Positions 22,739 to 31,059 of a stretch of DNA of 64,000 nucleotides are shown here, piece by piece. The notes under the pieces were generated by a model. The model was not told the origin of the DNA. It did not search any database and worked only from the letters and a program-made list of their open reading frames with translations. The stretch lies in contig NZ_SDVA01000003.1 of NCBI RefSeq assembly GCF_004153545.1, positions 177,954-241,953 on the forward strand. Reading direction: 5' to 3'. Positions within the stretch are counted from its first letter, which is position 1; each line of letters starts with the position of its first letter. The translations under genes were made by a program, and so were the position numbers. The DNA comes from Serinicoccus sediminis (GTDB lineage Bacteria; Actinomycetota; Actinomycetes; Actinomycetales; Dermatophilaceae).

Positions 22739-24139
22739 TCAGGCCGAGAAGACCGCCCACAGCACTCCGGCACCCAGGCCCAGCAGCACGCTCAGGCCGG
22801 CGGTCGCGACGGCGGTCCACCGTGACCAGGGCGCGGGCGGATCGCCGTCCTCCGGGTGCTCGGCCGTCGGGCGGGCGTAGAGCGGGGCGATCCACCGCAG
22901 GTAGTAGAAGAGGCTGGCCAGGGTGTTGAGCAGCACGAGCACGGCGAGCCACGCGTCACCGGCGTCCCAGGCGGCGGCCGTGGTGGTGAGCTTGCCGACG
23001 AAGACCGCGGTGGGCGGGGTCCCGACCAGCCCGAGCAGCGCCACGACCAGCGCCGCGGCGAGCCACGGGAAGCGCCTGCCCACCCCACGGTAGGCGGACA
23101 GCTCGCGGCGCCGCGGGAACGCGGTGGTGACGGCGAAGGCCGCCAGGTTGGTGACCGTGTAGCCGGCGAGGTAGAGCAGCAGGGACGGCAGCGCCAGGTC
23201 GCTGCGGCCCGCCACCGCGACGGGCACGAGCAGGTAGCCCACCTGGCTGACGGTGGACCAGCCGAGCAGGCGCCGCGGGTCGGTCTGGGCGTAGGCGGCG
23301 AGGTTGCCCACCGTCATGCTGGCGACGGCCAGCACGCCGACGAGCAGCGGCCACGCCAGGGTGTCGGGCAGGGCGCCCACGAGTCGGTATGCGGCCACGA
23401 CCGCCCCGATCTTCGGCACCGTCGTGAGGAACGCCGCGACGGCGCCGCCGGCGCCCTGCGCGGCGTCGGGGACCCAGAAGTGCGCAGGGACGCCACCGGC
23501 CTTGAACAGCAACCCGCCCAGGACCCCCACGACACCGGCGGCGACCACCGCACGAGGCGCGGCGGCGAGCGGGTCGGCCAGCCCGACGTACGACGTCGTG
23601 CCGGACACGCCGTAGAGCAGCGTGACCCCGGCCAGCAGCAGGATGCCGAAAAGGGCACCGAGCAGGTAGGTCTTCATCGCCGCCTCGGCCGCCACGGCGG
23701 TCCCGCTGATCCCGATGAGGCCGTAGAGGGGGACGCTGGTCAGCAGGAACCCGACAGCGACGACGAGCAGGTCGTCGGCGCCGGCGAGGACCAGCGTGCC
23801 GGTCGTGGACAGGAGCAGCAGCGCGTAGGTCTCGCTCTCCCGCGGGCTGCCGTCGATCTCGTCCGCCGCCAGCGCCAGCACCACCAGGGCGCCCAGGGTG
23901 GCGACCAGGCGGGCCACCCCGGTGGTCGGGTCCACGGTGAAGCTGCCCTCCATGGCCACCGCCGTCGGGCCGGCCAGGGCGACGGCGGCCATCGCAGCGG
24001 CGAGCACCAGGGCGGCCGCGGCGACGACCCGGGTGACCCACTGCCGCGTGCGGGGCAGGAACGACCCACCGAGCAGGGCGGCGAGGGCGCCGAGGAAGAG
24101 CACGATCTCCGGCAGGAGCAGGGCCGGTCGCATCGCCAT
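22739..24139 (-). CDS. nuoN: NADH-quinone oxidoreductase subunit N (antiporter-like)
   Basis: A 466-residue Proton_antipo_M subunit with about 14 membrane helices. The ATG at 24139 is chosen because GGAGG lies eight bases before it. Family motifs: AAMKTYLLGALFGILLL (conserved Lys), LLFKAGGVPAHFWVPDAAQG and FLTTVPKIGA. In the fifth-helix region where NuoN normally has Gly-Leu-Glu, this protein reads GFLLTSVPLYG, so the channel Glu appears replaced by Leu (alignment by eye). Last gene of the operon. Confidence 0.92.
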   Translation of the reverse strand: MAMRPALLLPEIVLFLGALAALLGGSFLPRTRQWVTRVVAAAALVLAAAMAAVALAGPTAVAMEGSFTVDPTTGVARLVATLGALVVLALAADEIDGSPRESETYALLLLSTTGTLVLAGADDLLVVAVGFLLTSVPLYGLIGISGTAVAAEAAMKTYLLGALFGILLLAGVTLLYGVSGTTSYVGLADPLAAAPRAVVAAGVVGVLGGLLFKAGGVPAHFWVPDAAQGAGGAVAAFLTTVPKIGAVVAAYRLVGALPDTLAWPLLVGVLAVASMTVGNLAAYAQTDPRRLLGWSTVSQVGYLLVPVAVAGRSDLALPSLLLYLAGYTVTNLAAFAVTTAFPRRRELSAYRGVGRRFPWLAAALVVALLGLVGTPPTAVFVGKLTTTAAAWDAGDAWLAVLVLLNTLASLFYYLRWIAPLYARPTAEHPEDGDPPAPWSRWTAVATAGLSVLLGLGAGVLWAVFSA

Positions 24140-24154
24140 GGAGTCCACCTCCGC

Positions 24155-25645
24155 CTACCTCCCGACGAGCTGCACGACGACCTCCGCGGCGGGCTCGACC
24201 ACTCCGAGCAGCGGGCGGGGCAGCACCCCGATGAGCAGCGAGAGGCCGAGCAGCGGCGCGACCGCCCAGAGCTCGGCGGCACGCAGGTCGCCGAAGCCCC
24301 GCGAGGCGCCACGGGTGGGTCCGGTGAAGAGACGCTGCAGCGCCCGCAGGAACAGCGCCGCGGTGATGAGGATGCCGACCAGCGCGACCGCCGTCACCGG
24401 GGCGACAGCGATGCTGCCGGCGAAGATCTGGAACTCGGCGATGAAGCCGGACAGGCCGGGCAGCCCGAGCGAGGCGAACGCACCGACGGCGAAGAGCGTG
24501 GCCAGGCGCGGTGCGGTGCCGGCCAGCCCGCCGAAGGAGCCCAGGTCGTAGGTGCCTGCGCGGTCCCAGACCACCCCCGCCATGAGGAACAGGGCGGCGG
24601 TGACGATGCCGTGGCTCACCATCTGGGTCACGGCGCCGGTGACCGCCACCGACCGCGCCTGCTCGCTGCCCTCGGCGACGATCCCGGCGGCACCGACGGC
24701 CAGGACGACATACCCCATGTGGTTGACCGAGGTGTAGGCGATCATCCGCTTGAGGTCGGTCTGGGCGAGCGCGACGAGCGCGCCGTAGACGACCGAGACG
24801 ACGCCGACCACGACGACCACCCAGGCCCAGGCGCGCCAGGCCTCGGGGAGCATCGGCATCGCGATCCGGACGAAGCCGTAGGTGCCCATCTTGAGCAGCA
24901 CACCGGCCAGGACGGCCGACCCGACCGCGGGGGCGTCGGTGTGCGCGGGGGGCAGCCAGGTGTGGAACGGCACCGTCGGCGTCTTGACCGCCAGCCCCAG
25001 CAGGATGGCCGCGAGCACCAGGCCACCGGCCGTGGGCGACCCGTCGAGCGGGGTCTGCCGGGCCAGCTCCACCATGTCGAAGGTGTGCGGCTCGGCCGCG
25101 ACGTAGAGACCGATGAAGCCGGCGAGCAGGGCCAGCGAGCCCAGGAAGGTGTAGAGGAAGAACTTCAGCGCCGACCGGCCCCGGTCCCCGTGGCCCCACC
25201 CGGCGATGACGAAGTACATCCCGACGATGGACAGGTCGAAGAAGAGGAAGAACAGGATGAGGTCGGCGGCGGCGAACAGCCCCAGGCTGACGCTCTGCAG
25301 GAAGAGGAAGAGCGCCGCCCGGGTCCGGGGCCGGTCCTCGTCGCGGAGGGCGAAGACGGCACAGGCCAGGAACACCACCGTCGTCATCGCCATGAGCGGC
25401 AGCGACAGCCCGTCGACCCCCACGTGGTAGCTGCTGTCGACCCCCGGGATCCACGGCACCTGCTCCTCGAAGGCCAGCCGGCCCGGCCCCGGTGGCTCGT
25501 AGGCCAGCCACAGGGCGGCCACGAGGGCCAGGTCGACGGCCGTGACCACGACCCAGACCCACCGCGCGGCACCGTCACCCAGCCGCGGGACCGCGACCAG
25601 GGCCACCGCGGCGAGCAGGGGCAGGACGATGATCAGACTGAGCAC
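24155..25645 (-). CDS. nuoM: NADH-quinone oxidoreductase subunit M (antiporter-like)
   Basis: A 496-residue antiporter-like membrane subunit. The GTG at 25645 follows GAGG with a five-base gap; the GTG at 25651 would overlap the nuoL stop but lacks a usable site. Landmarks: AVKTPTVPFHTWLPPAHTDAP (Lys and His of the channel), LLKMGTYGFVRI, AQTDLKRMIAYTSVNHMGY and LGLPGLSGFIAEF. The essential helix-5 Glu of canonical NuoM (FFE followed by MYF) reads FFDLSIVGMYF here, Glu to Asp. Confidence 0.94.
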   Translation of the reverse strand: MLSLIIVLPLLAAVALVAVPRLGDGAARWVWVVVTAVDLALVAALWLAYEPPGPGRLAFEEQVPWIPGVDSSYHVGVDGLSLPLMAMTTVVFLACAVFALRDEDRPRTRAALFLFLQSVSLGLFAAADLILFFLFFDLSIVGMYFVIAGWGHGDRGRSALKFFLYTFLGSLALLAGFIGLYVAAEPHTFDMVELARQTPLDGSPTAGGLVLAAILLGLAVKTPTVPFHTWLPPAHTDAPAVGSAVLAGVLLKMGTYGFVRIAMPMLPEAWRAWAWVVVVVGVVSVVYGALVALAQTDLKRMIAYTSVNHMGYVVLAVGAAGIVAEGSEQARSVAVTGAVTQMVSHGIVTAALFLMAGVVWDRAGTYDLGSFGGLAGTAPRLATLFAVGAFASLGLPGLSGFIAEFQIFAGSIAVAPVTAVALVGILITAALFLRALQRLFTGPTRGASRGFGDLRAAELWAVAPLLGLSLLIGVLPRPLLGVVEPAAEVVVQLVGR

Positions 25646-25647
25646 GG

Positions 25648-27585
25648 TCACCTCACCGAGAGCAGGAGCAGGACGCCGACCGCGAGGACCGCGACGGCCT
25701 GGACGTAGTAGTGGTGCAGCTGTCCGCTCTGGGGACGCCGCGCCACCTGACCGAGCCGGCGGACGCGGGCGGCGAGTCCCTCGACCGCGCCGTCGACCCC
25801 TCGCTCGTCGGCCCGGGCGGCGACCCGGGCGAGCCGCGCGGTCGCGCGGGAGCCGGACCCGACGGCGCCGTCGAGCACCCGGTCGTCGAACGTCGCCGCC
25901 CTGCGTGCCACGCCGACGGCACCGGCCGCGGCCGCCCCCACGGCACGGTCCAGCACCCGGTCGTCGAAGGACGCCAGGGCCCGGGCCAGCGCCAGCGTGG
26001 GGCCGACGACCACGGCCCGGACGGCCGTCTCCAGACCCAGCCAGTGCCGAACCCACCCGGGACGGGGAGCGGGACGCCACCGGACGAGCGCGAGCACCGC
26101 GAGGGCGAGGGCCGCCGACACCCCCATCTCCGCCAGACCGGGGTGCCCGGGCTGCTCCAAGAGGGACCGGGCGAGGACGTCACCCACCGGGGGCAGCGCG
26201 AGCAGGCCCAGGGTCAGCGCCCCGAGAGCGAGCGGCAGCAGCGGCAGGGTCTCCAGCCGGCCGACGTGCCGGGTGCCCTCCTGCTCCTCGTCCAGATGCT
26301 GGACCACCCGTGCACGGTCCGCCGCGGGCACCCGTGCCCAGACGGTGAGCAGGATCCGGCCCGAGTAGGCGGCGGACAGGGCTGCCGCGGCCAGGCCCAC
26401 GGCATACAGCCACGGCGACCGGGCCAGCGCCACGGCCAGCACCGCGTCCTTGGTCGCCCACAGGGCCAGGGGAGCCACGCCCGCGAGGGAGAGGGCCCCC
26501 ACGGCGCTCGCCACGCCCACCAGCGGCCAGCGCCGGGCGGCCCCGCGCAGCCCGGTCAGCTGCTTGGTGCCCAGGGCGCTCAGCCAGGCCCCGGCGGCGA
26601 GGAAGAGCAGCGCCTTGGTCGAGGCGTGCGCCACGAGGTGCGCCGCCCCACCGCCGACGGCGCCCAGCCCCGCGCCCATGACGACGAAGCCCAGCTGGGC
26701 CGCGGTGGAGGCCGCCAGGAGCTGCTTGAGGTCCTGCTGGGCCAGCGCCACGGCGCCCAGCAGCAGCGCGGTCGTGGCTCCGACCCAGGCGGCGGTCGGA
26801 CCGGCCCACCCCGTGGCGGCGAGCAGCGGCTCGGTGCGCAACAGCAGGTAGCCGCCCATGGCCACCATGGCGGCCGAGTGCAGCAGCGCGCTGACCGGGC
26901 TGGGGCCCTCCATCGCCCGGGACAGCCAGAACGAGAACGGCAGCTGGGCGGCCTTGCCGAGGGCGGCGACGAGCACCCCGGCCGCCAGCACGTGCCGCCA
27001 CCCCTCGCTCGCGGCGGGCAGGTCGGCCAGCGCCAGTCCACCGCCCCCGGCGAGGGCCGCCCCGGCGGCCAGGTAGAGGCCGACGTCCGCGGCCCGGGTC
27101 ACGAGGAACGCCGTCGTGCCGGCGGAGACCCGGTGCTGCTCGCGCCACCAGAAGCCGATGAGCGCGAACGACGTGGCGCCCATGACCTCCCAGGCCAGGA
27201 GGAGGCCCGGCAGGGTCTGCGCGGTGGCGGTCAGCAGGGCGCCCGAGGCGAACAGCAGCATGAGCCCGTAGAAGCGCGCCCGCGACTGCCCGATCTCGCC
27301 GGCCGAGAAGACCAGCACGAGCAGGGTGACGACCGCGACGGTCGGGACGACCAGCGCCGACAGGGCGTCGACGCCGAGGGCGAGGTCGGTGCCGGCCATG
27401 AACGGCACCGACACCTGCGGCCCGCTGATCGCCACGAGGAGAGCCAGGACGGCGGTCAGCGCCGCGGTGATCAGGGAGACGGGCACGGCGACCCGCTCCG
27501 GGCGCATGACGACCAGGAGCGCTCCGACGAGCGCGGGGAGCAGGACGAGGAGCCACAGGGCGGTCTGGGCGCTGCCGTGGCTCAT
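25648..27585 (-). CDS. nuoL: NADH-quinone oxidoreductase subunit L with extended lateral helix
   Basis: A 645-residue antiporter-like subunit. The ATG at 27585 overlaps the nuoK stop (ATGA). Channel residues look intact: LLLAWEVMGATSFALIGF (Glu), LGKAAQLPFSFWLSRAMEGP (Lys), SALLHSAAMVAMGGY (His) and AHASTKALLFLAAG (Lys). The C-terminal segment before the last membrane helix, which in complex I is the horizontal helix running along the membrane arm, contains three copies of a motif like FDDRVLDGAVG (near residues 535-600). Canonical actinobacterial NuoL has one. Confidence 0.94.
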   Translation of the reverse strand: MSHGSAQTALWLLVLLPALVGALLVVMRPERVAVPVSLITAALTAVLALLVAISGPQVSVPFMAGTDLALGVDALSALVVPTVAVVTLLVLVFSAGEIGQSRARFYGLMLLFASGALLTATAQTLPGLLLAWEVMGATSFALIGFWWREQHRVSAGTTAFLVTRAADVGLYLAAGAALAGGGGLALADLPAASEGWRHVLAAGVLVAALGKAAQLPFSFWLSRAMEGPSPVSALLHSAAMVAMGGYLLLRTEPLLAATGWAGPTAAWVGATTALLLGAVALAQQDLKQLLAASTAAQLGFVVMGAGLGAVGGGAAHLVAHASTKALLFLAAGAWLSALGTKQLTGLRGAARRWPLVGVASAVGALSLAGVAPLALWATKDAVLAVALARSPWLYAVGLAAAALSAAYSGRILLTVWARVPAADRARVVQHLDEEQEGTRHVGRLETLPLLPLALGALTLGLLALPPVGDVLARSLLEQPGHPGLAEMGVSAALALAVLALVRWRPAPRPGWVRHWLGLETAVRAVVVGPTLALARALASFDDRVLDRAVGAAAAGAVGVARRAATFDDRVLDGAVGSGSRATARLARVAARADERGVDGAVEGLAARVRRLGQVARRPQSGQLHHYYVQAVAVLAVGVLLLLSVR

Positions 27586-27884
27586 CGGGACAGGTCCGTC
27601 GCCATGTCGGTCATGTCGGTCTGCCGGGCCCGGTGCAGCAGCACGGCGACGGCGAACCCCATGGCCATCTCCAGGGTCATGGCGGCGATGACGACCATGA
27701 GCAGGACCTGCCCGGTGGGGCCGGGGGCCAGGAACCACCAGCACGCGGCCGCCGCCAGGATCACGGCGTTGATCATCAGCTCCAGGCCCATCATGACCAT
27801 GACCACCACCTGCTGGGAGATCGCGCCGTAGAGCCCGACGGAGAAGATCGCCGCGCTGATGAGCAGCGCCGCCTCGAGGGTCAT
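27582..27884 (-). CDS. nuoK: NADH-quinone oxidoreductase subunit K
   Basis: A 100-residue, three-helix membrane subunit. The ATG at 27884 follows GGAGGAG and overlaps the nuoJ stop (ATGA). Both membrane glutamates required for proton transfer are kept, in MMGLELMINAV and AMTLEMAMGFAVAV. The C-terminal tail (HRARQTDMTDMATDLSR) is slightly longer than usual. Confidence 0.94.
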   Translation of the reverse strand: MTLEAALLISAAIFSVGLYGAISQQVVVMVMMGLELMINAVILAAAACWWFLAPGPTGQVLLMVVIAAMTLEMAMGFAVAVLLHRARQTDMTDMATDLSR

Positions 27885-28459
27885 CGGCCCACTCCTCCGG
27901 GCTGCGGGTCGTCCGGGGGGCGCTGCCGCAGGTCGTCGCCGAACCGGTCGTAGCGCGTGCGCGGCGCGGCCAGCACCACCCCGGCCACGATGGTGGCCAC
28001 CATGACCGGGCTGATGACGGCCATGACGAGCATCTGCGGGCCCATGAGGGCCTCGCCGAGGGCTTCCGTGACCTCGGGTGGGGGGCTGCCCCGGCGGGCG
28101 GGCCAGTCCACGACGAGGATGCCGGCCGCCAGGAGGAGGAAGGTGAGGACCGCGGTCGCCACGGCGGTCCGGTTGCTGTGGACCATGCTCATCGGCATGA
28201 GGGCCGGGTTCATCCCCATGAACATCACCATGTAGACGGCCATGACCGCCATCTCCATGACCATCATGAGGATGACGACCACCCCGACGTAGCTCTGCTG
28301 CAGGAAGAGCACCTGCACACCGACCGCGACGAAGGACACGGCGAGGGCGTAGGTGGCGCGGGCCATCGAGTCCACGACGAAGACGGCGGCGCCGCTGAGG
28401 ACCGCCACGACCCCGAGCGCCACGAAGGCGATGTCGACGAGCACGGTCAGGACCTCCAT
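27881..28459 (-). CDS. nuoJ: NADH-quinone oxidoreductase subunit J
   Basis: A 192-residue membrane subunit with five predicted helices. The ATG at 28459 lies inside the end of nuoH (13-base overlap). The third-helix region reads VGVQVLFLQQSYVGVVVILMM, which fits NuoJ but is divergent from the usual VYAGAIMVLFLFV pattern. The following segment is remarkably methionine-rich (MEMAVMAVYMVMFMGM). The C-terminal 40 residues (TRYDRFGDDLRQRP) are soluble. Confidence 0.88.
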   Translation of the reverse strand: MEVLTVLVDIAFVALGVVAVLSGAAVFVVDSMARATYALAVSFVAVGVQVLFLQQSYVGVVVILMMVMEMAVMAVYMVMFMGMNPALMPMSMVHSNRTAVATAVLTFLLLAAGILVVDWPARRGSPPPEVTEALGEALMGPQMLVMAVISPVMVATIVAGVVLAAPRTRYDRFGDDLRQRPPDDPQPGGVGR

Positions 28460-29424
28460 ACCGTGACGACGGCGACGAGCAGGTCCTGCACCAGCGCCGC
28501 GGGGAGCAGCACGAGCCAGCCGATCTCCATGAACAGGTCGGGGCGCAGGGCGGGGAGCCGCCGACGCGCCCAGACCAGCAGCGCCAGCACGGCCAGGGTC
28601 TTGACCAGCGTCCAGGCCCAGTCGGGGAGCAGCGGCCCAGCCCCGCCGCCGAGGAACATCGGCACGGCGAAGGCCGCGCCGGCCGCGAGCAGGGCGTACC
28701 GCCCCGTCTCGAGCACCAGGCGGTCCACCCCCGACAGCTCGGCCCGCACGCCACCGGCGACGTCGGTGCCCAGCGCCGGGGCGAACGGGCCCCACACCGA
28801 GAAGCCCGCCACGCCCAGCAGGTAGACGAGGAACGCGACCGGCATCCAGGCCGCGAACCACAGCCCGTCCTGGGCGGCGGCGACGGCGCCCACGTTCAGG
28901 CTGCCCGCGGCGATCGCCGGGGCGACGAGGGCGAACATCAGCGGCAGCTCGTAGCCCAGGCCGTGGGCCAGGAACCGGTAGCCGCCGACCAGCGCGTGCG
29001 CCGAGTTGGCGCCCCAGCCGACCAGCCACACCAGGGCCCAGACCATGACGTCCATGGCGTTGAACCACACGACGCCCACGGCCAGGTCGGCGACCGTCCA
29101 CCGCCCCAGCGGCACCACGGCGAGCATGAGGGCCGCCGCGACGAGCAGCCCCGCCCCGCCGGTGCGCCAGAGCAGGGTGTCGGCCTGCACGGTGGTGCGG
29201 CGACGCTGCCGCAGCAGCCGGGACGCCTCACCCAGGGGCCGGCCGGCTGCGCCCAGGGCACCACCCGCTGATGCGGAGCGCGCGGACAGCACCCCGTCGA
29301 GGGCGGCTGCGGCCAGGGCCAGGGCTCCGAGCACGGCGACCACGGCGACCGCCCAGGCGGGCGCCACGGTGACGACCGCCGGGCCTGCGGCTGCAGGGAG
29401 CGAGGTCAGGAGCGGCTCACCCAC
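28447..29424 (-). CDS. nuoH: NuoH-like membrane subunit lacking the quinone-channel signature
   Basis: A 325-residue, eight-helix protein. It is recognisably NuoH (GRPLGEASRLLRQ, TVQADTLLWR, VWFNAMDVMVWALVWLVGWG). It starts at GTG 29424, eight bases inside the previous gene. The first loop lacks GPNRxGP. The cytoplasmic loop that in canonical NuoH carries ETNRAPFDLPE and ELV, lining the quinone tunnel, reads GVAGFSVWGPFAPALGTD here, with only AELSG left of the following TEYSG. It may no longer admit quinone. Confidence 0.85.
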   Translation of the reverse strand: MGEPLLTSLPAAAGPAVVTVAPAWAVAVVAVLGALALAAAALDGVLSARSASAGGALGAAGRPLGEASRLLRQRRRTTVQADTLLWRTGGAGLLVAAALMLAVVPLGRWTVADLAVGVVWFNAMDVMVWALVWLVGWGANSAHALVGGYRFLAHGLGYELPLMFALVAPAIAAGSLNVGAVAAAQDGLWFAAWMPVAFLVYLLGVAGFSVWGPFAPALGTDVAGGVRAELSGVDRLVLETGRYALLAAGAAFAVPMFLGGGAGPLLPDWAWTLVKTLAVLALLVWARRRLPALRPDLFMEIGWLVLLPAALVQDLLVAVVTVWRS

Positions 29425-30559
29425 GGGTCGCCTCCGGGCGCGGTGCCGGTGCGGCGCTCAGCCCGCCGAGGTCGAGACCGGCCAGCACCAGCCGCGCGGC
29501 CGCGAGGTCGAGACCGACGACCGGGTCCGCCAGGGCGTCGACCGGCACGGCCTGGCGACCTCCGGGCGGCGCCGGCTCGTCGACGTCGTCCAGCAGGTGC
29601 AGCAGCCGGTCGTAGGCGTCGCCCCCGGCATCCTCCGGGAGCCCGAGACGGCGGACGTCGTCGGCGGTCAGCGGCCCCAGCCCTCGCAACGACCAGCGCA
29701 GCATCCGGGAGCGGCGCACCCGTCGCCGCAGCCGCGCCAGCCCGGGGGAGGCCGTCGGGTGGTCGGCGGTGGTCGGGCGGGCGTCGCCGGTCGCCGGCGC
29801 GTCGCGGACGCGCCGTGCGCGCTCCGCGGCGTCGTCCCAGCCGGCGAGCGCCAGCACGGACACCACCCGGTCCAGCGCCCGCGTCCGCGGGTCGGCCGCG
29901 TCCCCGTCCTCGTGCTCCGCACCGAGGAGCTCCGCGCGGGCGCCGGTGAGGACGTCACCCTGGAGGGAGCAGTGCAGCACCAGACCTGCCGGCCAGTGCG
30001 GCAGCACGGGGCCGAGCCGGACCGCCAGGACGTCCATCTCCAGCCCGTCCCGGTCATCGCCACCCTCGGCGAGTGGGATGCCCCCGGGGGACATCTCCAT
30101 GTCGTGTCCGCCGTGGTCATCGGAGCTGTCGTGGTCGCCGTGGTGCTCGGAGCCTGCGTGGCCGTCGTGGCCGTCGTGGTCCTCGGGACCGTCGTGGCCG
30201 CCGTGGTCCTGCGCCCCGTGGCGCGCGCGTGGGTCGCGCCGGTGGTGGTCGTCGTCGAGCAGCCCCGCGCAGGCGCCGGCGAGGGCGTCCGGCAGGTCCC
30301 TGCGGTCGAGCACGTCCACCCGCACCCGGGGGCCCGGCAGCTGCTCCCACACGAGGTCCACCGCCGCGGCGAGCCGCGGACCAGGCGGCCCGCAGACGAG
30401 CAGGACGTCCGCGTCCGCCGGCGACCACGCGAGCCGCCACCCCCGCTCGAGCACCGCCCGCTCGGTCGCCATGCGGAGCCCGTCCCACCCGGGCACCTCG
30501 ACGACGAGGACGTGCGCGTGCCGGGCCGCCGACCGGGCCAGGACCTCCCTCAGACCCAC
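29417..30559 (-). CDS. NuoB-NuoD-like fusion without cofactor ligands, His-rich linker
   Basis: A 380-residue protein in the nuoB-nuoD slot. GTG 30559 follows GAGGGGG and overlaps the nuoA stop by ten bases. Residues ~1-95 align by eye with NuoB, notably SPADADVLLVCGPPGPR and DLVWEQLPGPRVR, but the Cys-Cys pair and the other N2 cluster ligands are missing. Residues ~110-155 are a His/Asp/Gly-rich linker (DHGGHDGPEDHDGHDGHAG). After it, LGPVLPHWPAGLVLHCSLQ resembles the NuoD start (GPQHPSTHG) without its histidines, and LRGLGPLTADDVRRLGLPE matches a later NuoD segment. No NuoC domain. Probably a structural cap on the membrane arm or a metal-binding protein. Homology is inferred, function unknown. 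Confidence 0.65.
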   Translation of the reverse strand: MGLREVLARSAARHAHVLVVEVPGWDGLRMATERAVLERGWRLAWSPADADVLLVCGPPGPRLAAAVDLVWEQLPGPRVRVDVLDRRDLPDALAGACAGLLDDDHHRRDPRARHGAQDHGGHDGPEDHDGHDGHAGSEHHGDHDSSDDHGGHDMEMSPGGIPLAEGGDDRDGLEMDVLAVRLGPVLPHWPAGLVLHCSLQGDVLTGARAELLGAEHEDGDAADPRTRALDRVVSVLALAGWDDAAERARRVRDAPATGDARPTTADHPTASPGLARLRRRVRRSRMLRWSLRGLGPLTADDVRRLGLPEDAGGDAYDRLLHLLDDVDEPAPPGGRQAVPVDALADPVVGLDLAAARLVLAGLDLGGLSAAPAPRPEATRG

Positions 30560-30894
30560 CGGAACGCCCCCTCGCGCCAGGCCCAGACGACCGCGACGAG
30601 CAGGGCCCCGAGGAAGAGGAACATCTCGACCACGGCGGACCACCCGACCTGGGCCACGACGACCGCCCAGGGGTACATGAACAGCATCTCGACGTCGAAG
30701 GCGAGGAAGACCAGCGACGCGAGGTACCACCGCACGTGGTAGCGGGACAGGGCGTGCTGCTGGGGGACCCAGCCGGACTCGAACGGCAGCGTGTGCAGCG
30801 GGTCGGCGACCACCGCGGTGGCCCGGTGCAGCGCATACATGCCGAGGATGCTCAGGACGGCGACGACGGCCACCAGGGCCACACCGGCATACAT
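30550..30894 (-). CDS. nuoA: NADH-quinone oxidoreductase subunit A
   Basis: A 114-residue, three-helix membrane subunit and first gene of the operon. The ATG at 30894 has a good GGAAGGAGCC site. FLAFDVEMLFMYPWAV and VEMFLFLGALLVAVVWAWREGA are typical NuoA. The loop motif YECGF, whose Cys becomes exposed in the deactive state of complex I, reads FESGW here, so the Cys is lost. Seven further genes follow with overlaps or very short gaps. Confidence 0.94.
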   Translation of the reverse strand: MYAGVALVAVVAVLSILGMYALHRATAVVADPLHTLPFESGWVPQQHALSRYHVRWYLASLVFLAFDVEMLFMYPWAVVVAQVGWSAVVEMFLFLGALLVAVVWAWREGAFRWV

Positions 30895-30986
30895 GGGGCT
30901 CCTTCCGGTCGCGACGACCGGCCCATGGTGGCAGCAACGTCCGCCCGGCGCAGCCCCACCGGCCCCACCCGTCCCGGGCCACGAGG

Positions 30987-31059
<73 letters not shown>

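Follow-up and report, generated by a model that had tools for sequence, protein, structure and literature searches.

A mobile complex I-like gene set without redox sites and its possible role in copper export

In the stretch of Serinicoccus sediminis DNA analysed here (64 kb, hereafter the window), the gene between nuoA and nuoH encodes a fusion of NuoB and NuoD, called BD below, that carries neither iron-sulphur nor quinone-site residues. It is part of an eight-gene set, nuoA-BD-H-J-K-L-M-N, which spans at least two phyla and is mobile. The strongest signal of this cassette lies outside the BD gene (29417..30559), in invariant methionines of NuoJ, NuoK and NuoA. Judging from these sequences, we give about an even chance that the eight products form a redox-free complex I-like membrane complex that would export Cu(I) by means of the proton motive force.

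The BD fusion and the loss of redox sites

Both halves of BD were identified by profile and by fold, NuoB and NuoD each being matched separately as the original prediction had anticipated (Table 1). The NuoB-like half gave a PDB match over residues 29-81 (phmmer) and an hhalign E value of 5.5e-9, and its structure model is confident. The top PDB match of the window BD is 6cfw_J, while a model of the Rubrobacter-type BD has 7z0s_E and 6u8y_L as top matches. Chance resemblance to NuoB or NuoD was rejected because hhalign controls gave probabilities of at most 2.8.

Table 1. Features of the cassette in the window
Feature	Position	Strand	Basis
nuoN-like antiporter subunit	22739..24148	-	PF00361 E 8.6e-47
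nuoM-like antiporter subunit	24155..25651	-	TIGR01972 E 1.6e-146
nuoL-like antiporter subunit	25648..27585	-	PF00361 E 2.8e-47
nuoK-like	27582..27884	-	PF00420 E 1.1e-11
nuoJ-like, with methionine ladder	27881..28453	-	PF00499 E 3e-10
NuoJ ladder, residues 63-90	28184..28267	-	column counts in 101 cassette sequences
nuoH-like	28447..29424	-	PF00146 E 4.9e-40
BD gene, NuoB-NuoD fusion without cofactor residues, 380 aa	29417..30559	-	profile and fold matches
NuoD-like half of BD, shortened (about residues 166-370)	29450..30064	-	
BD linker (about residues 113-165), His/Asp/Gly-rich, predicted disordered	30065..30223	-	composition, pLDDT
NuoB-like half of BD (about residues 1-112)	30224..30559	-	phmmer, hhalign, model
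nuoA-like	30550..30894	-	PF00507 E 7.6e-26
tRNA-Arg (TCT), next to cassette boundary, some 90 bp upstream of nuoA	30985..31059	-	

The residues that we take to be key sites of E. coli complex I are the N2 cysteines, the His and Tyr of the quinone site and the Lys, Glu and His of the proton paths. In alignments of the first 110 or 145 residues of BD homologues, the columns of the N2 ligands Cys63, Cys64 and Cys129 (E. coli numbering) contain Cys in 0/240, 0/240 and 1/240 sequences respectively, and at column 158 every one of the 240 N-terminal pieces shows a gap. No CPP motif occurs among 120 close BD homologues. The only cysteines of the window BD, at 56, 97 and 197, are isolated, and CxxC is absent. 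All 25 canonical NuoD sequences compared share the His pair of GPxHPxxHG and the Tyr. Among 121 BD sequences, the His220 column is occupied by Phe (103), Leu (14) or Ser (2), that of His224 by Pro (120) or Ala (1), while the Tyr273 column contains Pro in 110 and a gap in 8. These column counts extend to the homologues the loss of N2 cysteines and of quinone-site histidines initially claimed for the window protein. Moreover, the 64-kb window gave no tblastn match to E. coli NuoC, E, F, G or I.

The two halves are joined by a linker of 45 residues in the window protein, 31 of which are His, Asp or Gly (69%), in agreement with the His-rich linker of about this length described at first. In the predicted model, pLDDT is below 50 over most of residues 119-163. 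The linker of close homologues measures 33-120 residues and contains 2-25 His with a median of 11 (74/120 with parsable ends). More distantly, the Pfam domain PF19335 (HMBD, 'heavy metal binding domain') scores above the cut-off in 5/10 BD homologues and takes the place of the linker in the BD of Rubrobacter and Proteobacteria; at the same cut-off it is absent from the window BD. This is the same domain as the HMBD of copper-efflux proteins, and many plasmid matches to the HMBD part alone carry a copper P-type ATPase annotation. Its CxMHP motif is present in 1-10 copies in each of 120 proteins among the matches listed (P0122-P0241), a copy number range that resembles an expandable metal-binding array. 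His106, His149 and Met154 of the window protein are each kept in at least 90% of 78 sequences, 13 of them of the HMBD type. No link between HMBD (PF19335) and NuoD or complex I was found in the literature covered. The metal role proposed for the linker at the outset gains support from PF19335 in the linkers of relatives and from the copper genes adjoining many copies of the cassette (see below). Linker type is not universal, since both HMBD and His richness are missing from three distant members (L122, L123, L130). These display a third linker type with a conserved GxGGxGMxGGxPxGRP stretch. Among aligned homologues, the cysteine loss is conserved and the type of linker varies.

Methionines and ion-path residues of the membrane arm

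Most residues of the ion path are retained in the membrane-arm subunits. NuoA keeps Asp79/Glu81 (E. coli numbering), NuoK keeps Glu36 (98/98) and Glu72 (97/98), and NuoH keeps Glu157 (90/99) and Glu228 (99/99). In the antiporter subunits, E144, K229, H254, H338, K342 and K399 of NuoL (E. coli) are found in 90/90 cassettes, K234, K265 and E407 of NuoM in 95/95, and K247 of NuoN in 94/94. NuoL has Gln at the position of E. coli His334 in 30/90 cassettes. In NuoM, E144 is replaced by Asp in 88/95, and in NuoN, K217 is Lys in 68/94 and K395 in 93/94. On the other hand, Glu133 of NuoN is lost in 94/94 (Leu in 85) and Asp213/Glu216/Glu218 of NuoH are mostly gone; consequently, coupling may be altered.

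The methionine pattern is most pronounced in NuoJ. Met 63, 64, 68, 71, 75, 79, 81, 88 and 90 (E. coli V58, Y59, I63, L66, V70, L74, L76, Q83 and R85, respectively) are invariant in 101 cassettes, and Met77 is conserved at 0.98. The window sequence in the Tyr59 region is MMVMEMAVMAVYMVMFMGMNPALMPMSMVH. Met reaches at least 85% at 14 columns of NuoJ, 11 of them at 101/101, compared with a single column in 30 canonical sequences. NuoK displays 6 such Met columns against 1 in canonical NuoK (104 and 32 sequences, respectively), with conserved Met at window positions 31, 33, 71 and 75 that are nearly always missing from the canonical protein. Total Met does not tell the two groups of NuoK apart, as it overlaps (up to 0.108 in a canonical protein, 0.097 on average in the cassettes); what distinguishes them is the column pattern alone. 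In NuoA, Met occupies E. coli positions 82 and 85 in 95/95 cassettes and neither position in the three canonical NuoA compared. NuoM likewise gains Met and His. The NuoJ and NuoK pattern is present in the deepest actinobacterial lineages and on alphaproteobacterial plasmids, and in a NuoJ+NuoK tree the 44 cassette sequences stand apart from the 30 canonical ones (support 1.0, branch 1.25).

Distribution, mobility and copper-gene neighbourhood

Searches with BD returned 1107 matches at E <=1 and 1025 at E <=1e-5. The eight-gene set recurs across Actinomycetota as well as on alphaproteobacterial and Rubrobacter plasmids, and the BD fusion is present in Gammaproteobacteria too. Within the family, BD was found in 24/149 genomes and 13/53 genera; across the phylum, in 14/198 genomes, some of these matches being weak. 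Besides the cassette, the host genome carries two nuo operons: a canonical complex I operon on another contig (L117), complete from NuoA to NuoN, and a second one (L116). The cassette is therefore an extra set, and the idea that it is the canonical complex I of this genome was rejected on account of the full operon. The second operon (G000:C8:65001-84000) includes NuoA, B, H, I, J-N and a NuoC-like frame, with no NuoD match, and a lone intact NuoD with GPQHPATHG lies on contig C66 (L118, G000:C66:50001-62000).

The cassette DNA of the window is 96-97% identical to that of three sister genomes (G007, G029, G021). For the canonical nuo operon, compared in G029 and G007, identity over alignable parts is 89.8% and 86.8%, respectively. 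Alignment with the sisters ends at the cassette ends, save for the variable linker inside and one 120-base piece, and the tRNA-Arg gene at the boundary may be the integration site of the window copy. Sixteen plasmid records match the window BD, three of them over 17-19% only, and 12 plasmid records among the matches listed carry an HMBD-type BD. Some plasmid copies are flanked by insertion sequences (ISMav6, IS3, ISKra4, IS5), as in L148 (Mycobacterium avium pHP17a), L149 (Rhodococcus), L186 (Sulfitobacter) and L191 (Thioclava). The plasmid of Streptomyces sp. NBC_00080 (L154) has a lone nuoA-like annotated gene and only the start of BD was matched. In L027 (G009) and L010 (G021), BD or nuoH is split over frames or contains an internal stop; such copies look broken, or like assembly errors.

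For the analysis of flanking genes, 93 loci were taken (the window, 80 and 12 others), 86 of which show both cassette ends. A copper or soft-metal gene lies within 6 kb in 61/86 loci, with two or more classes in 31, compared with 0/60 control stretches of 6 kb. The Pfams encountered are heavy-metal P-type ATPase, multicopper oxidase (near 19/86 loci), CsoR-type repressor, DUF305 and the Cys-rich DUF326; YHS in flank representatives was slightly under the Pfam cut-off. At least one copper-positive locus exists for 24/35 labels (14/23 for genus or MAG labels, 10/12 for other genome loci), with 4/8 positive loci in Arthrobacter and 0/3 in Salinispora. No copper gene was present in the flank examined in 25/86 loci, and in the window copper queries matched nothing in the whole 64 kb. 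In its three sister genomes, an HMA (CopZ-like) gene is located immediately upstream of nuoA (3/3) and a DUF305 gene downstream of nuoN. Copper or heavy-metal genes also stand beside the set in 10/16 plasmid stretches examined (Arthrobacter FB24, M. avium, Pseudonocardia, Curtobacterium, M. paragordonae, Rubrobacter, Sulfitobacter SK025, Sulfitobacter OXR-159, Roseovarius and Nitratireductor). The Ornithinimicrobium stretch carries a more distant DUF305 gene, and neither copper nor heavy-metal genes were seen in the Streptomyces fragment or in the stretches of Rhodococcus, Gordonia, Paracoccus and Thioclava. The cassette family is genetically linked to copper genes, though the window copy lacks them.

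Relation to known systems and possible function

The cassette shares with complex I (NDH-1) NuoA, H, J, K, L, M and N, all matched in Pfam or NCBIfam, the NuoB and NuoD folds and most proton-path residues. It differs by the absence of NuoC, E, F, G and I, the fusion of B and D, the lack of N2 and quinone residues, the Met-rich J, K and A subunits and, in relatives, the metal-binding linker. The Mrp antiporter is a redox-free relative of complex I with antiporter subunits and without NuoH or NuoB/NuoD. While the first two properties are shared by the cassette, NuoH (PF00146) and the NuoB and NuoD halves distinguish it from Mrp as so defined. In group 4 [NiFe] hydrogenases, CxxC pairs of the large subunit hold NiFe and the small subunit has Fe-S cysteines. 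These enzymes and their relatives (Mbh, formate hydrogenlyase, MBS) provide the top PDB matches of BD, yet BD has neither the NuoB-type cluster cysteines nor CxxC. We rate the cassette as a member of the complex I-related complexes; its function, if confirmed, would be a new one. Searches of the literature covered, which mostly excludes subscription journals, brought up no account of the BD fusion, its HMBD or the Met ladder.

Members of the family have nevertheless been encountered before, as far as the available portions of these papers tell. Penn and Jensen (2012, PMC3314556) described in Salinispora a 'second partial NDH-1 operon' of seven nuo genes, horizontally acquired and associated with marine adaptation, and the partial NDH-1 operon of Kocuria flava (2018, PMC6002675), with nuo A, H, J, K, L, M and N, was given a marine adaptation reading as well; relatives of these operons were reported from Actinobacteria and Proteobacteria. 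In the available text of both reports the BD gene is unnamed and the operon is not connected to copper, a word not found in that of PMC3314556. Three Salinispora loci (L084, L091, L093) belong to the BD-cassette family and presumably correspond to the published operon. According to the accessible part of Eddie and others (2021, PMC8233155), nuoADHJKL lie inside the copper operon of Marinobacter atlanticus and are co-expressed with it. That part deals with one genus, states that NuoM/N are missing and suggests a copper-redox-driven pump; the fusion, the ligand loss and the methionine ladder are unmentioned in it. The family includes a protein from Marinobacter sp. (P0292) with HMBD and NuoD domains. 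The available text of PMC8478169 mentions neither nuo nor NADH.

How could such a complex export copper? NuoB and NuoD lie on the cytoplasmic face of complex I. The BD cap would be similarly placed, and its linker, His-rich here and HMBD-bearing in relatives, would pick up cytosolic Cu(I), perhaps delivered by the CopZ-like HMA protein encoded beside nuoA in the sister genomes. Cu(I) would then move along the methionines of NuoA/H/J/K, at the position of the quinone cavity and E-channel of complex I, and inward proton flow through NuoL/M/N would pay for its export. Export is preferred to import because of the cytoplasmic location of NuoB/NuoD and the resistance context; we infer transport, metal and direction alike. 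A broader scenario, slightly below even chance in our estimation, is that complex I has been converted from an electron-driven proton pump to a proton-driven Cu(I) exporter: the redox core would now serve as a cap that loads metal, a Met-lined metal path would have arisen from the quinone cavity and E-channel, and the antiporter subunits would run in reverse at the expense of the proton gradient, the whole spreading between phyla on copper-resistance plasmids.

The export reading is favoured by the lost redox ligands, the retained ion-path residues, the thioether ladder, HMBD, the copper-gene context and the co-expression with copper genes reported for Marinobacter atlanticus in the available text of PMC8233155. 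Against it count the 25/86 loci without a nearby copper gene, including the window and 3/3 Salinispora loci, the distant members devoid of both HMBD and His-rich linker, and the losses of NuoN Glu133 and NuoH D213/E216/E218. In addition, helices rich in Met can have a role in packing or redox protection, and P-type ATPases already export Cu(I), which leaves the benefit of a second exporter unexplained.

Several of these observations have other possible explanations. The 3 Salinispora and 22 other loci without a close copper gene, together with the conserved antiporter residues and the published marine association (PMC3314556, PMC6002675, as available), would suit an Mrp-type Na+ or K+/H+ antiporter for marine or pH adaptation in which metal features are secondary, a view close to the Salinispora and Kocuria interpretations in those texts. 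Such an antiporter is unlikely, since it leaves unexplained the invariant Met of J, K and A, the HMBD repeats and the copper-gene neighbourhoods. The metal-binding linker belongs to a cap that governs the membrane arm in complex I and the proton residues are kept; Cu(I) on the cap might thus open or close the membrane arm without copper being moved, and the complex would act as a copper sensor or as a valve for protons or ions that is gated by metal. We doubt this also, as gating by a soluble cap needs no Met ladder through membrane helices.

The same linker, the multicopper oxidases near 19/86 loci and the Marinobacter co-expression could argue for the pump proposed for Marinobacter atlanticus (PMC8233155, available text), where Cu(I) oxidation or reduction would power outward ion pumping by the membrane arm. 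No Fe-S ligand and no quinone-site His or Tyr remains to accept electrons in a set that has no cofactor-binding subunit, and we consider this pump improbable. The loss of redox ligands and the few copies that look broken, e.g. that of G009, whose nuoH piece is interrupted by a TGA, might finally suggest that the set is what remains, without function, of a duplicated nuo operon. This is hardly credible in view of the invariant columns, the conservation in two phyla and the plasmid-borne copies recently transferred whole. For the same reasons of conservation pattern and wide spread a decayed relic was rejected, and the term 'relic' in the original prediction does not suit a protein that is conserved, widespread and accompanied by seven membrane-arm genes.

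If the export reading holds, it would add an unrecognised mobile copper-handling complex, parts of which currently go under the labels NADH dehydrogenase, hypothetical protein or hydrogenase subunit. A long-standing question about complex I concerns the way in which electron transfer at the quinone site drives remote proton channels. In this cassette the electron part has been removed and the membrane machine kept, so that coupling between NuoA/H/J/K and NuoL/M/N could become testable without redox chemistry.
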